This document shows positions 3,128-35,111 of a stretch of 64,000 bases of DNA, piece by piece. How positions within the stretch are numbered: the stretch's first letter is position 1; every line of letters begins with the position of its first letter. The position numbers were made by a program, and so were the translations under genes. This stretch comes from Desulfobacula sp. (GTDB taxonomy: Bacteria > Desulfobacterota > Desulfobacteria > Desulfobacterales > Desulfobacteraceae). Under the pieces are notes generated by a model, which was not told the DNA's origin, ran no database searches, and worked only from the letters and a program-made list of their open reading frames with translations. The DNA is taken from the NCBI GenBank assembly GCA_023701135.1, contig JAMPXP010000010.1, positions 62,001 through 126,000 of the forward strand, in the 5' to 3' direction.

Positions 3128-5094
3128 TATTTAAACCCCCTGCCGATACGCTCGTTTTTGCCTTTGAATTTTTCAGGAATGGTGATGGGATTCAAGAGTT
3201 CCTGCATCTCAAACCGGTCTGCGCCGGGGTTGGCTTCCCTGACGGTTTCAATCTGACTGATCCTCTTTTTCGTGTCCGGATGATGGACAATATTATCCAC
3301 ACCATATCCCCTTGATCCCGGAGGCATTTCCATTTTCATCACATCCAGTTCTTCATAGCTGATATCGGGGAGATCCGAACCCTCTTTCCATGTGGCCAAT
3401 GTCCGTTTCAGCCAATCTTTGTCATTTCTTTCAGGATAGTCTTCCCTGGCGTGGGCGCCGCGGCTTTCCGTCCGGAGGAGGGCCCCATAGGCCACACACT
3501 GGGCCAGCTTGATCATTTTCGGCACCCGGATGGCTTCCACCAGTTCAGGATTGGAAGAAGAGATCCTGTTTCTCAGGGCAATGTTTCTGGCCCTCTGGTT
3601 CAAGGACTTCAATTCTTCCACGGCCTGCTCCAGATCCGGTCCGTTTCTGAAAATACCCACCTTGTCCATCATGATTTTCTGCATTTCAGCCTTCAACTGG
3701 AAGGGGTTTTCGCCATGATTCCTGAGCAGAAGGTCTGTGATTTTCTTTTCTTCCTGCCGCATGAAATGCTCAATGGTGGTGGTGCTGATGTTCAAAGGGT
3801 TTGCCGCGCAATAATCCGCCACATACTCACCCACGATCATGCCGGCCACAACGGTTTCTGCAACGGAATTGCCGCCCAGGCGGTTGAACCCGTGCATATC
3901 CCAGCAGGCTGCTTCGCCGGCAGAGAAAAGACCCTTGAGGGCCGGGCTTTCTCCCGTGGCCCGGGTTCGGACTCCGCCCATGGAATAATGCTGGGTGGGC
4001 CTCACCGGGATGAGTTCCTCCACCGGGTCAATGCCGAGGAAATATTCACAGATTTCTTTGACTTCCCTTAAATTCTTTTCAATATGCTTTCGTCCCAGAA
4101 GCCGGATGTCCAGCCAGAGATGATCCCCGTACCGGGAGGGCACCCCTTTGCCTTCTCTCATATGCTCGGTCATTCGCCGGGACACCACGTCCCTGGAGGC
4201 CAGTTCTTTTTTATCCGGTTCATAATCCGGCATGAACCGGTAGCCGTCCCTGTCCAGCAGAAGCCCGCCGTCGCCGCGGCATCCTTCCGTGGTCAGGATG
4301 CCAACGGGAACAATGGCCGTGGGATGAAACTGGACCGCTTCCATATTTCCCAGGGGGGCGATGCCGGTTTCAAGGGCAATGGCATTGCCGATACCTTCGG
4401 AGATGACGGCATTGGTGGTCACGGAATAGAGTCTTCCGTAACCGCCCGTGGCAATGGTCGTGGCCTTGGCCACATAGGCCATGAGTTCCCCCGTGATCAG
4501 GTCCCTGACAATGGCTCCGTAACAGATTCCGTCATCATGGATCAGGGCCAGGGCCTCTTTGCGCTCATGAACCGGGATCCCCATCTGGATGGCCTTGTTG
4601 TCCATGGCATAGAGCATGGTATGGCCGGCCCCGTCCGAGGTGAAACAGGTCCGCCATTTTTTTGTTCCGCCGAAATCCCTGGCTGAAATCAGGCCGTGGG
4701 CCTCGGCCTTTTCCGTGATGGTGACCTTTTCCCCGTTGATGACCACCTCCCGGTCCCCGGCCCTGACCCTGGACCAGGGCACGCCCCAGGCCGCCAGTTG
4801 GCGGATGGCCTTGGGAGAGGTGTTGACAAACATCCGGGCCACATCCTGGTCGCAGCCCCAGTCGCTTCCCTTAACCGTATCTGCAAAATGGATGTCTTCA
4901 TCATCCCCGTCCCCCTTGATACAGGCCCCGAGACTGGCCTGCATACCGCCCTGGGCCGCCGCAGAATGGGACCGTTTGGCAGGAATCAGGGAAAGGACGA
5001 TGGTGTCATACCCCCTCTGCATGGATGCGATGGCCACTCTCAGCCCTGCCAGGCCCCCGCCGATTACAAGTGAATCCGTATATATGACTTTCAT
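3127..5094 (-). CDS. frdA: Fumarate reductase / succinate dehydrogenase flavoprotein subunit
   Basis: Catalytic subunit that interconverts succinate and fumarate with covalently bound [13 protein letters not shown] near residue 12 is the dinucleotide-binding loop, and [10 protein letters not shown] places the FAD-linking histidine at residue 43. [21 protein letters not shown] and [13 protein letters not shown] are the substrate-site blocks, followed by [23 protein letters not shown]. The length of 655 residues equals that of epsilon- and deltaproteobacterial FrdA. It lies 12 bases after frdC and overlaps frdB by one base. It is one of seven co-directional genes, so it is very probably read from the promoter ahead of sucC. 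Confidence 0.96.
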
Positions 5095-31011: not shown

Positions 31012-32166
31012 TCAACGAGCGGTCTGAATGCGATCCATCTCGCTGCGGGAATTCGCATTGAACCGATTGGACCTGTTATGGTTGTCCGGTCTATTTTCTT
31101 TTAAAATCCGGTTAAAAAACCGATAACTATTCTGATAGCAGATCTTTTCAATAACCCGGGAGGAAATGCCCTGCTTTTCCATTTCCATGACCAGCAAAGG
31201 AAGAGACTGAACCCCGGCCATGCCTTGAGGAAGACTGTCTACGCCGTCAAAATCGCTTCCCAACCCAAGACAGTCTTCGCCGCCGACATGGATGATGTGC
31301 TTTGCATGTTCCACCAGAAGAGAAATAGGCGCGTTTTTTAACCCTCCCAAAGCCTTTTGGCTGGTTTCCCCGGCGTCCTTAAAGGTCATGGTCTTGTCTT
31401 TAAGCCCTTTGATGATCCTGTCCCTGTTGGCTCTCTCATGTTGATAATATTCCGGGCTGATAAACCCTGATCCGAAAACCAGACCGATCAGCCCGCCTCT
31501 CTGGGCAATGATACGGATCATATCATCGGTGAGATTTCTGTTATTGGGGCAGATCTTTCTGGCATTGGAATGGCTTGCCAGAAACGGAATTTTTGTAATG
31601 GCGGCAATATCGTAAAAAGCCTTGTCCGAGGCATGGGATACGTCAACGGCCACCCCAAGCCCATTGCAATACCGGACAAGGTTTTCCCCTGAGGGTGTCA
31701 GCCCGCTGTTATCCCCGAATACGGTCCCGCAGAATTCATTATCATCCCAAGCAATGGTGAGAAGCCTGACCCCTCTTTTATAAAAATGTTCCAACATTTC
31801 CACTTTCCCCATCAACGGGGTCGCACCTTCAATGGCAATGATCACGGCTGTTTTTCCCTCGAATTCCAAAGCCGGGGCGAGGGTCTTGGATGATGTAGCA
31901 AGGATCAGCCGGTCCTTATGGGTATGGATCAATTCTTCAATGGCGTCGATATAGGCATTGCAGGCATCAAACGGATCGGCGAAACGGCCTGAATCGTAGA
32001 TAAAACAGGCAAACACCTGGGCGGATAAATTTGAACTCAGAATGCCGGGCAGATTGAGATGAAGCTCAGAGGTGGCGGTAAAATCACAGCCCTTCTCAAC
32101 GATTTTCTGAATGGTGTCACAGTGAAGATCAAAAAATTTCAATTTCGTCCATGGAAAGCCCTTCAT
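31012..32166 (-). CDS. Membrane dipeptidase family (peptidase M19)
   Basis: Zinc hydrolase of the renal-dipeptidase family, 384 residues. FFDLHCDT gives the H-x-D metal pair, AIEGATPL the bridging glutamate, DVSHASDK and SHSNARKICPNNRNL the further histidines, and LGLGSDFDGVDSLP the late aspartate. The first eight codons overlap the preceding radical SAM gene, and no good ribosome site precedes the ATG; a TTG at 32142 is possible. The tail KENRPDNHNRSNRFNANSRSE is asparagine-rich and outside the catalytic fold. Substrates are probably dipeptides, including D-residue ones. Confidence 0.88.
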   Translation of the reverse strand: MKGFPWTKLKFFDLHCDTIQKIVEKGCDFTATSELHLNLPGILSSNLSAQVFACFIYDSGRFADPFDACNAYIDAIEELIHTHKDRLILATSSKTLAPALEFEGKTAVIIAIEGATPLMGKVEMLEHFYKRGVRLLTIAWDDNEFCGTVFGDNSGLTPSGENLVRYCNGLGVAVDVSHASDKAFYDIAAITKIPFLASHSNARKICPNNRNLTDDMIRIIAQRGGLIGLVFGSGFISPEYYQHERANRDRIIKGLKDKTMTFKDAGETSQKALGGLKNAPISLLVEHAKHIIHVGGEDCLGLGSDFDGVDSLPQGMAGVQSLPLLVMEMEKQGISSRVIEKICYQNSYRFFNRILKENRPDNHNRSNRFNANSRSEMDRIQTAR

Positions 32167-33157
32167 CCGTTAAAACCCGAAACCGATGGTTTGGATAGGC
32201 TATGTTCAGTTTCTTCATATTGTTGTTTCGCTCTCCTCTCAGCCGGGGCAAGGCTCTTGGATGAACCCTCAGCCCAACCTCCTCTGAGGTCAGAAGACCC
32301 GGGCATTGGTCCAGTCTTTCACACACCAGATCATACAGCATCTCGGAAAAAACAAGGTGTCCAAAGGCCGGGTGCCAGGGGCCGGCAAGAACCATGGACG
32401 CGTCCTCCATCATCTCCGAAGCCTGGAGTCCCATGCGGATCACTTCCACACCGGCGTTTCGGAATATTCGATACATGTGCTTGACCAGCCGAACGGCTTC
32501 GGCCAATGCCAAAGGCTGATAGAGTCCTTCCGCATACCATTTTTCCATCCGGCTGCCCTTGAGCACCATCAGGGGATAGATTCTTGCAAAATCCGGACAA
32601 AGACCGGCAATTTTTCTGGTGCTCTCCAATAATGATATTTCATTGTCTGCGGGTAATCCCGCCATGACCTGAACCCCGATTTTCACCGGGATTTGTTTCA
32701 GCAAATCCATGGCCTTGACGGTATCGAGGCTTTCATGGCCTCTTCCCGATGCAGAAAGAACGGCATCATTCATGGATTGAACCCCGACTTCAACGGCCGA
32801 TACGGGATATGGGGCGATAAGCGCAAGCCTTTCTTTTGTGATGGTATCAGGGCGGGTGGAAAACCGGATGCCGTCAATCTTCTTTTCGCGGATATAGGGT
32901 CCAATATGCTCCAGCAGAGTGACTATGATTTGAGGGTCAAGCCCGAGAAAATTACCGCCGAAAAAGGCGATCTCCACCTTTTTTCGCCGGCCTTTAAATT
33001 TCAGATAATGCTGGACGATCTCTTGAATTTCAGAATGATCCGGTAACGGGCCGTCCTTTTGGGCAATAATGGACTGGTTGCAGAAGGCACACTGATGGGG
33101 ACAGCCTGAATGGGGAATAAAGATGGGGATGACAAGGGGTTTTTCCTGAGGATTCAT
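32129..33157 (-). CDS. Elp3-like radical SAM protein
   Basis: A 342-residue radical SAM enzyme. The cluster motif is CPHQCAFC (CxxxCxxC), followed by the SAM-contact block FFGGNFLGL, the RPDTI strand, EVGVQSMND and a C-terminal region of unknown role, without the acetyltransferase domain of true Elp3. Homologues commonly neighbour rnc in bacterial genomes, and here it directly follows the RNase III fusion gene by 10 bases. The product of the reaction is unknown; RNA modification is a reasonable guess from the context. Confidence 0.85.
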   Translation of the reverse strand: MNPQEKPLVIPIFIPHSGCPHQCAFCNQSIIAQKDGPLPDHSEIQEIVQHYLKFKGRRKKVEIAFFGGNFLGLDPQIIVTLLEHIGPYIREKKIDGIRFSTRPDTITKERLALIAPYPVSAVEVGVQSMNDAVLSASGRGHESLDTVKAMDLLKQIPVKIGVQVMAGLPADNEISLLESTRKIAGLCPDFARIYPLMVLKGSRMEKWYAEGLYQPLALAEAVRLVKHMYRIFRNAGVEVIRMGLQASEMMEDASMVLAGPWHPAFGHLVFSEMLYDLVCERLDQCPGLLTSEEVGLRVHPRALPRLRGERNNNMKKLNIAYPNHRFRVLTDEGLSMDEIEIF

Positions 33158-33167
33158 AGGCAGGCCA

Positions 33168-34730
33168 TCAGGGAAAAATCTCTTTCAGCCGTTTTAAGGT
33201 TTGCCTGGCCGTATCCTGTTCAGCCGCTTTCTTGGATTTACCGGATCCCCTGGATTCAATACCGAAAAGGCTTAACCGCATCTCAAAGGTTTTGTCATGA
33301 TCCGGTCCGGTCTCATTCACCACCTGATAGCAAGGGGTTGCACATCCCCTTTCCTGGGCATATTCCTGGAGCGTGCTCTTATAATCAATGGTCTTTTCAT
33401 TGGCCACCATCTCGTCCAGGATTTCATTAAACAGCCGGCGAATCAATCCACACCCTTCATCAAATCCGCCATCCAGATAGACAGCCGCAATAACGGCTTC
33501 AAAGGCATCGGACAGGATGGAATTTTTATCATGCCCCCGGGAAATCGCTTCACCCTTTCCAAGCCGGATGAACCGTCCAAGGTCAATGGATCTGGCCGTC
33601 TTTGCCAAAGCCGGTTCACTGACCAGCGTCGCCCTTAATTTGGAAAGCTCGCCTTCTTTTTTTAAGGGACTTTTTTCCATTAAAAGCTCAGCGATGCAGA
33701 GCCCGAGAACCGCATCCCCCAGGAACTCCAGCCGTTCGTTATCCGAATCGCAGGTATCCTGGTTCTCATTGAGATAGGACCGATGGCAAAGGGCATTCAT
33801 TAAAAAGGACCTGTCGTTAAAGCCATAGCCCATATTATTTTCCAGGATGGCCAAGTCCGCACCGGTTTCTCTGTTCTTCTCCAGCCAAGCAGTCAATGCC
33901 TTGAATACGGAAAGACCGATCTTCAGGTTGTTTTTGCCCGTACCCAGGAAAACCCCTTCATTGAATGACCCGTGAAAATCCGACCCCCCGGTGGCAATCA
34001 GCTTCTTCCGGCTGCAAAGGGTTTCATAAAAAAAAGTGATGGGCTCGCTATGGTCTGTATAATACACCTCCATACCGCCAAGGCCGTATTGGATAAGGGT
34101 ATCGATAAATTCTTCGAGTTGATCGCTCCGGCTGAATGAGAGAAGTCCGGGATGGGCCAGTACCGGTATCCCGCCGGCTTCAAGAATAACCTTTACGGCT
34201 TTTTCGCAGGATATTTTATATTTTTCCACATAGGCCGGCTTGCCCTTGCCGAGATATTTGTCAAAGGCTTCGTCAAAGCTTTCCACATATCCCAGTTCCT
34301 TCATAAGCTCTGCAATATGGGGCCGTCCCGTCTGCTCCGCGCCAAACCGGTGTTGGACCTGATCCATGCTGATCGCAAATCCAAGAAAGTTCAATTTTTC
34401 AATTATTTTCGGATTTCTGTCTATCCTGGCTGCTTTTGCAGCATTCAAGACGGCATTGAGGTTTTTATCATAAACGCTGAACCCATATCCCAGAAGGTGG
34501 ATACTGCCCAGATCCGTGAAGCCGGGCGGGGGTTCACAACTGATTTCGACACCGGTTATGAATTCCGGACAGGTGCTGGGGGGTTGTTTTAATACTTCAA
34601 GGACACCGTCAATGGTGTCGTGGTCGGTGATGGAAATCGCTTGAAGACCGGTTTGCCCGGCCAGAACCAGGATTTCCAAAGGGGAAAGTGAACCGTCCGA
34701 GGCTGTTGAATGGATGTGAAGGTCTATCAA
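33168..34730 (-). CDS. rnc: PHP-phosphoesterase (RNase AM/YciV-like) fused to ribonuclease III
   Basis: One 520-residue frame joining two nucleases. Residues 1-285 are a PHP domain of the YciV/TrpH group with metal residues in MIDLHIHS (H5, H7), D12, TDHDT (H37), GVEIS (E62), H78, LAHPG (H193) and GGSDFHG (D251, H253). Residues 292-440 are an RNase III domain with signature NERLEFLGDAVL (E332, E335, D339) and ILSDAFEAV (D408, E411). Residues 447-516 form a double-stranded RNA-binding domain. All catalytic residues of both halves appear intact, and no internal start with a ribosome site was seen at the junction. The start is TTG with AGGA seven bases upstream. It follows dksA by 18 bases. Confidence 0.9.
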   Translation of the reverse strand: MIDLHIHSTASDGSLSPLEILVLAGQTGLQAISITDHDTIDGVLEVLKQPPSTCPEFITGVEISCEPPPGFTDLGSIHLLGYGFSVYDKNLNAVLNAAKAARIDRNPKIIEKLNFLGFAISMDQVQHRFGAEQTGRPHIAELMKELGYVESFDEAFDKYLGKGKPAYVEKYKISCEKAVKVILEAGGIPVLAHPGLLSFSRSDQLEEFIDTLIQYGLGGMEVYYTDHSEPITFFYETLCSRKKLIATGGSDFHGSFNEGVFLGTGKNNLKIGLSVFKALTAWLEKNRETGADLAILENNMGYGFNDRSFLMNALCHRSYLNENQDTCDSDNERLEFLGDAVLGLCIAELLMEKSPLKKEGELSKLRATLVSEPALAKTARSIDLGRFIRLGKGEAISRGHDKNSILSDAFEAVIAAVYLDGGFDEGCGLIRRLFNEILDEMVANEKTIDYKSTLQEYAQERGCATPCYQVVNETGPDHDKTFEMRLSLFGIESRGSGKSKKAAEQDTARQTLKRLKEIFP

Positions 34731-34748: not shown

Positions 34749-35111
34749 TTAGATTCCCAGGGCCTTTTCCATATCCTCTTCACGGGTCTTACAATCAATG
34801 CACTGGGTGGTAACAGGTCTTGCCTTGAGGCGCTGAATGGAAATCTCTTCATCACAGGTTTCACAGACCCCGAAACTCCCATTTTCAATTCGCTCAAGGG
34901 CATTCCTGATTTTTTTGATCAATTTATGTTCACGGTCCCTGATTCTCAATTCAAAGCTTCGGTCTGCTTCGTGGGAAGCCCTGTCTGTAGGATCGGCAAA
35001 ATTCTCTTTGGGCTTTGTCATTCCGGTAACGGTATTGTCGGCATGGGAAAGGAGCTCATTAAGTCTCTCGGTCAAAAGATTCTTAAAAAATTCCAAATCT
35101 TCTTTTTTCAT
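34749..35111 (-). CDS. dksA: DksA/TraR-family RNA polymerase-binding protein
   Basis: A 120-residue secondary-channel regulator of transcription. A long N-terminal helical hairpin (residues 1-75) contains FADPTDRASHEADRSFE, which matches the acidic tip region (D..D..A) of DksA. The C-terminal zinc finger is CETC...CIDC. GGGGATAGGCC precedes the ATG. In other bacteria DksA works with ppGpp on rRNA and amino-acid promoters. Here it heads a transcript that continues into the RNase III fusion. Confidence 0.93.
   Translation of the reverse strand: MKKEDLEFFKNLLTERLNELLSHADNTVTGMTKPKENFADPTDRASHEADRSFELRIRDREHKLIKKIRNALERIENGSFGVCETCDEEISIQRLKARPVTTQCIDCKTREEDMEKALGI

Follow-up and report, generated by a model that had tools for sequence, protein, structure and literature searches.

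The window, a stretch of 64,000 nucleotides from Desulfobacula sp., carried a single open reading frame in which a PHP phosphoesterase is joined to RNase III (Table 1). The sequence-only reading had described this 520-residue frame as a PHP enzyme followed by an RNase III with its dsRNA-binding domain; its coordinates and length were confirmed, and the strand, on which it was silent, is minus. The TTG start codon at 34730 was preceded by an AGGA motif 7 nt upstream. Pfam matched PHP at residues 3–89, Ribonuclease_3 at 332–422 and dsrm (PF00035), the dsRNA-binding domain, at 450–515. The AlphaFold2 model of the protein, based on 31 related sequences, had a pLDDT of 92.9 and a pTM of 0.84, and the two predicted helices listed for the junction bridged both halves.

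Table 1. Coordinates of php-rnc, its parts and its neighbours in the window.
Feature	Position	Strand	Remarks
Fused gene php-rnc	33168..34730	minus	TTG start; 520 codons and stop
PHP phosphoesterase half	33894..34730	minus	~residues 1–279
Junction	33831..33893	minus	~residues 280–300; within predicted helices 273–290 and 293–300
RNase III half with dsRNA-binding domain	33171..33842	minus	Residues 297–520
DksA-family gene	34749..35111	minus	Directly upstream of php-rnc; conserved neighbour
Radical SAM gene	32129..33157	minus	Directly downstream of php-rnc; certain loci from other groups also have it adjacent to rnc

A tblastn search with the whole fusion protein as query found no further RNase III in the window's genome. 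It did return a second, distant PHP on another contig, with 34% identity (G000:C15:38404-39231, locus L002). As the comparisons below document, php-rnc unites two known enzymes in a fusion that is real, conserved and recurrent. The sequence-only reading knew of no description of this architecture, and among the titles listed for the open-licence literature there was none on a PHP–RNase III fusion.

Active sites of the two halves

The metal site of the PHP half was formed by H5, H7, D12, H37, E62, H78, H193, D251 and H253, among which we take H7 to be a ligand. All nine positions were invariant in 145/145 loci, as were R102, R105, R136 and F156 of the 5′-phosphate pocket. These four residues are equivalent, by the sequence alignment through which RNase AM numbers were transferred, to Arg107, Arg110, Arg141 and Phe161, which the available part of the report on the E. 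coli RNase AM structure names together with eight metal ligands (PMC9410882). The same part of that report describes a salt bridge between Arg201 and the active-site sulfate (PMC9410882). At this position Arg was found in 0/145 loci (the window protein has L196). It was also replaced in all 13 readable PHPs from other orders of the phylum (4 of 17 were unreadable), so the Arg201-less state is a trait of the wider PHP group and not of the fusion. The earlier assignment to PHP phosphoesterases of the YciV/TrpH type was upheld, with an intact metal site in a protein fused to an intact RNase III.

Foldseek matched the PHP half to RNase AM from Vibrio cholerae (9etk) and E. coli (7ug9), and to the entries 3e0f/3o0f and 2yb1. 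With RNase AM (Rnm, YciV) it shares the PHP fold, the three-metal ligands, the pocket arginines and the stacking Phe; the two differ in that RNase AM has Arg201 where the PHP half has Leu, the PHP half falls below the RNase RNM cut-off, and the PHP half is fused to RNase III. The RNase RNM model NF047791 gave 144.5 bits (cut-off 375) and had a match over its cut-off in 0/31 genomes of the order Desulfobacterales, while the NAPase model NF041577 for 3′,5′-nucleoside bisphosphate phosphatase gave 161.8 bits, also under its cut-off of 400. All ten PHP proteins scanned, among them the second PHP, scored higher with NAPase than with RNase RNM. The 3′,5′-nucleoside bisphosphate phosphatase CV1693 (2yb1), whose family model thus provides the best NCBIfam score, was also the best PDB sequence match of the PHP half and a close fold match; CV1693, however, stands alone and has Arg at the 201 position, whereas the PHP half lacks that Arg and stays below the NAPase cut-off. 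Of the listed fold matches, the one with the highest TM-score normalised to the query was the BAD_1165 PHP phosphoesterase (3e0f, 3o0f), which has the GRPHIA motif in common with the PHP half and, unlike it, is a stand-alone protein. In five loci of genus g3 (L227–L231) the PHP halves were 324–341 residues long and contained an insertion near residue 205.

The number of PHP proteins varied with the group. In each of 20 order genomes tested from outside the family, the RNase RNM model matched only the PHP linked to rnc (E up to 1e-10). A second, weaker PHP was present in 11/11 genomes tested from the family Desulfobacteraceae and in 0/20 of the non-family order genomes (E 1e-10); one family genome, G085, had the second PHP without an rnc-linked one.

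The RNase III half matched TIGR02191 over residues 297–515 with 237.1 bits, above the equivalog cut-off of 166.25, and its Foldseek matches were E. coli RNase III (7r97) and Aquifex structures. Its catalytic residues are E335, D339, D408 and E411, which we take as the counterparts of the catalytic E41, D45, D114 and E117 of E. coli RNase III. E335, D339 and E411 were invariant in 144/144 aligned loci (57 from the family, 16 fused outside it and 71 split). The D408 position held D in 73/73 fused loci; among the split loci D, N and G occurred 47, 19 and 5 times, respectively. The full nuclease domain, the signature motif and the dsRBD are common to the fusion and to bacterial RNase III from E. 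coli (7r97), Aquifex aeolicus (2nug) and Thermotoga (1o0w), from which the fusion differs by the N-terminal PHP enzyme of ~280 residues in the same chain.

Reading frame at the junction

The joint had been claimed to lack an internal start with a ribosome site, which slightly overstates the case. Codon 300 of the window's frame is an ATG preceded by GGA, and codon 293 is a TTG, but neither is conserved. The codon-300 column was ATG in 6/57 family loci. An ATG at some position of the junction was found in 18 of the 57 family fusions, in scattered columns, in 7/16 other fusions and in 69/72 split loci; together with a Shine-Dalgarno match of at least 4, it was found in 4/57, 2/16 and 28/72, respectively. 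No ATG, GTG or TTG at all was present in the junction window of 15/57 family loci. We therefore rejected an internal start as the source of RNase III, since such a start is not conserved. A minor short product may nevertheless arise in the window's organism, because its ATG codon 300 has GGA upstream.

Across the 22 codons of the junction, dN/dS was 0.04–0.28 in six of ten family pairs, zero in one and undefined in three, and both halves gave values of at most 0.27 in the family pairs where defined. For three fused pairs from outside the family, the junction values were ~0.5 in two and undefined in one. Both halves are intact and conserved, and the open frame runs across the junction with no conserved start inside it.

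Distribution and origin of the fusion

The full-length fused frame was present in 76/86 genomes of the Desulfobacteraceae, which include the genus Desulfobacula, some of them single-contig genomes. This count combines 71 genomes with one match over both halves and five (G002, G005, G007, G009, G011) in which an insertion near residue 205 broke the match and the frame was still fused. The single stop within the matched stretch in G043 and G063 was the gene's own end, with frames of 522 and 518 residues. Five of the remaining ten genomes had partial matches or matches at contig ends (G010, G018, G044, G045, G079), four gave only the distant PHP (G066, G072, G077, G084), and G085 had RNase III alone. 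All 57 family loci fetched with both halves were fused; two of them came from one genome (G004), in which two distinct fused genes (G004:C222 and G004:C339; L233, L234) point to either a duplication or a mixed bin. We rejected an assembly error or a missed stop because the fused frame is present in 76/86 genomes, single-contig genomes included.

In G085 (L232, 3318-4019), RNase III started with GTG and had the same neighbours as the fused genes: hemA-like and dksA-like genes, identified by eye, preceded rnc, which began 26 nt after dksA, and the radical SAM gene came next. On the tree this RNase III was nested among the fused genes (support 90/79, moderate), and with the same moderate support G085 appears to represent a natural loss of the PHP half. 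At another locus labelled Desulfobacteraceae (L102), rnc (3467-4138) and the radical SAM gene were present, and neither PHP nor DksA was found in the 3.4 kb upstream.

The search of the order covered the best matches listed for 291 genomes, 273 of them outside the family; 12/291 gave no match at all and others a single listed match. Both genes were present in 150 of the loci fetched within and outside the family, 76 of them fused and 74 split, and in 145 (73 and 72) after the duplicates L088–L092 were dropped; L087 may also duplicate a genome already in the set. Only loci in which rnc followed PHP in the same orientation were counted, and 88 came from outside the family, 16 fused and 72 split; as these were picked mostly by score, the fused share and the presence of the pair describe the fetched set. 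Among the order loci fetched by the position of PHP alone (L060–L067, L072, L080, L206–L226), rnc lay next to PHP in 31/31, the distance between the PHP stop and the RNase III domain being −35 to 337 nt, and the pair is thus conserved in the fetched order loci. Fused frames outside the family belonged to eight families (f24, f38, f51, f58, f59, f60, f67, f71), in four of which (f24, f59, f67, f71) split genes occurred as well. The sequence-only reading had named two separate genes in related genomes as a refutation, which is half borne out: they were absent from the 57 family loci and present in 72 of the 88 non-family loci. Adjacent split genes in relatives mark the fusion as a derived state and do not refute it.

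On a tree of both halves with 122 rows, the family's fused genes formed one clade, and the fused state required 11 changes, at least six of them forced by starred branches; these counts do not distinguish fusion from fission. The tree was calculated by a quick method without a mixture model, from 27 of the 57 family loci and without L072. The fusion is both conserved and recurrent.

Elsewhere in the phylum, no rnc was found near PHP in 17/17 loci within flanks of ~1.5 kb (L083 ends 47 nt downstream and is uninformative). Because PHP is not beside rnc there, we infer that the ancestor of the php-rnc pair was split. Both genes were found together in 0/74 loci fetched to look for the fusion in other phyla (L093–L166, from a listing of best matches that ran to at least 589 stretches). 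A separate RNase III match in another order of the phylum (G581:C42:34702-35376) lies in an open frame of 674 aa and is possibly another fusion.

The surroundings of the pair were also conserved. DksA lay upstream in 55/57 family loci, 72/72 split loci and 15/16 other fused loci, and radical SAM downstream in 55/57, 68/72 and 13/16, respectively, with a short downstream flank in four split loci and one other fused locus. Within L093–L166, rnc was directly beside radical SAM in 7/64 RNase III loci, and once more at a distance of 2.3 kb. Given this pairing of rnc and radical SAM outside the group, it looks as if PHP entered between dksA and rnc in a forebear of the genomes studied here.

Function of the fused protein and alternative readings

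RNase III products carry 5′-phosphate ends. RNase AM acts on 5′-phosphate RNA and matures rRNA 5′ ends, according to the available parts of three reports (PMC9410882, PMC10250234, PMC8406224). Stalks flanking the rRNAs were evaluated in relatives of the window's genome, whose own assembly gave no 16S match. The 23S stalk of G014 formed a duplex of −50.7 kcal/mol, against −36.8 for the best of 100 base shuffles, and the 16S stalk of G055 reached −49.2 against a best of −44.7 in 100 simple base shuffles; the 16S stalk of G014 (−65.3) was not beyond the minimum of −69.7 from 100 simple base shuffles. In view of the ends left by RNase III, the activity of RNase AM and these stalks, the most economical reading is that cutting and trimming are coupled.

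According to this reading, to which we give about an even chance, php-rnc would encode a natural bifunctional ribonuclease, in which a 5′-end nuclease resembling RNase AM is tethered to RNase III. The RNase III half would dimerise and cut dsRNA such as the leader–trailer stalks of rRNA precursors, leaving 5′-monophosphate ends. From such ends the PHP half would then remove nucleotides, a step that we propose because its 5′-phosphate pocket and three-metal site match those of RNase AM. The side-by-side genes and the separate fusions suggest that the two enzymes work together, and a coupling function of the fusion is likely. We infer that the PHP half is active, that it acts on what RNase III produces and that rRNA is the principal substrate; the sequence-only reading, which had proposed 5′-to-3′ trimming of rRNA by this half, is thus supported in part.

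The other RNA nucleases of these genomes form the background to that proposal. RNase J scored above its cut-off in 31/31 genomes tested, which rules out the PHP half as the only 5′-to-3′ exoribonuclease. Oligoribonuclease exceeded its cut-off in 0/4 family genomes tested. Four genomes contained no stand-alone DHHA1 protein of NrnA size, the only DHHA1 frames being ~880, 580 and 900 aa long; each had a single inositol-phosphatase-type protein and two proteins of the RNase E/G type. In the window's genome, a DHHA1 domain (G000:C3:146113-146355) lies in the frame of ~900 aa, for which we assume perhaps a DHH-CBS-nucleotidyltransferase architecture.

The PHP half could instead be a nanoRNase or a pAp/nucleotide bisphosphate phosphatase, which would clear 5′-phosphorylated oligonucleotides of 2–5 nt or pAp and trim no rRNA, the link to rnc then serving general RNA decay products. 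The consistently higher NAPase scores, the lack of an oligoribonuclease over its cut-off, the lack of a small DHHA1 protein and the single inositol-phosphatase-type protein in the four genomes all favour such a role. NrnA is described as a 5′–3′ exonuclease of short RNAs (PMC9757072). RNase AM is reported to hydrolyse 5′-phosphate RNAs of up to five nucleotides, which speaks for such a role, and to degrade a 40-nt RNA processively, which speaks against it (PMC9410882). A metabolic phosphatase, however, would have no obvious reason to be linked to rnc across the order, the DHHA1 protein of ~900 aa could provide nanoRNase activity, and family genomes encode another PHP protein as well. We consider the nanoRNase or phosphatase role unlikely, while giving it real weight.

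Still less probable, in our judgement, is a neutral origin, in which close and probably co-transcribed genes repeatedly lost the stop codon between them and the halves stayed independent, with a tether of no effect. Many listed split loci do share a frame with only 1–3 stops between the genes (the listing favours in-frame pairs), the tree needs its 11 changes of state, and G085 indicates that the PHP half can be lost. Against this stand the single origin in the family on the tree and its retention in 76/86 genomes, the constraint on the family junction codons where measurable, and the loss of conserved separate starts. An artefact, either of assembly or because translation begins inside the frame and yields a short RNase III but no PHP part, seems to us highly improbable: the GGA-preceded ATG at codon 300 of the window is countered by the fused frame in single-contig genomes and dozens of assemblies, by the 15 family loci devoid of any start codon in the junction window, and by the conserved PHP active site.

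Coupled cutting and trimming by a bifunctional ribonuclease is thus our preferred reading. Trimming of rRNA is not its certain role, since RNase J is present in all 31 genomes, NAPase scores better, Arg201 is missing and G085 has lost the PHP half. We also counted against this reading the PHP scores below both curated cut-offs, the absence of PHP from L102, the split state of most non-family order loci, the 16S stalk of G014 that did not exceed its shuffles and the junction dN/dS of ~0.5 outside the family. In its boldest form, which we put forward tentatively and hold to be rather doubtful, php-rnc would be a single-chain rRNA processing machine in which the entry cut is the work of RNase III and the new 5′-phosphate end is handed to the tethered PHP exonuclease. 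It would have been assembled by repeated fusion of the ancestral php-rnc pair, and 5′-end trimming in these Desulfobacterales would be coupled to RNase III instead of depending on RNase J or an untethered RNase AM.

To our knowledge, it is largely unsettled which enzymes trim rRNA 5′ ends outside the main model bacteria. Here an RNase AM-like gene is the neighbour of rnc and has repeatedly become one gene with it; this is evidence from genomes for a link between the two activities, and the fusion offers a compact protein for studying coupled endo- and exonuclease action.
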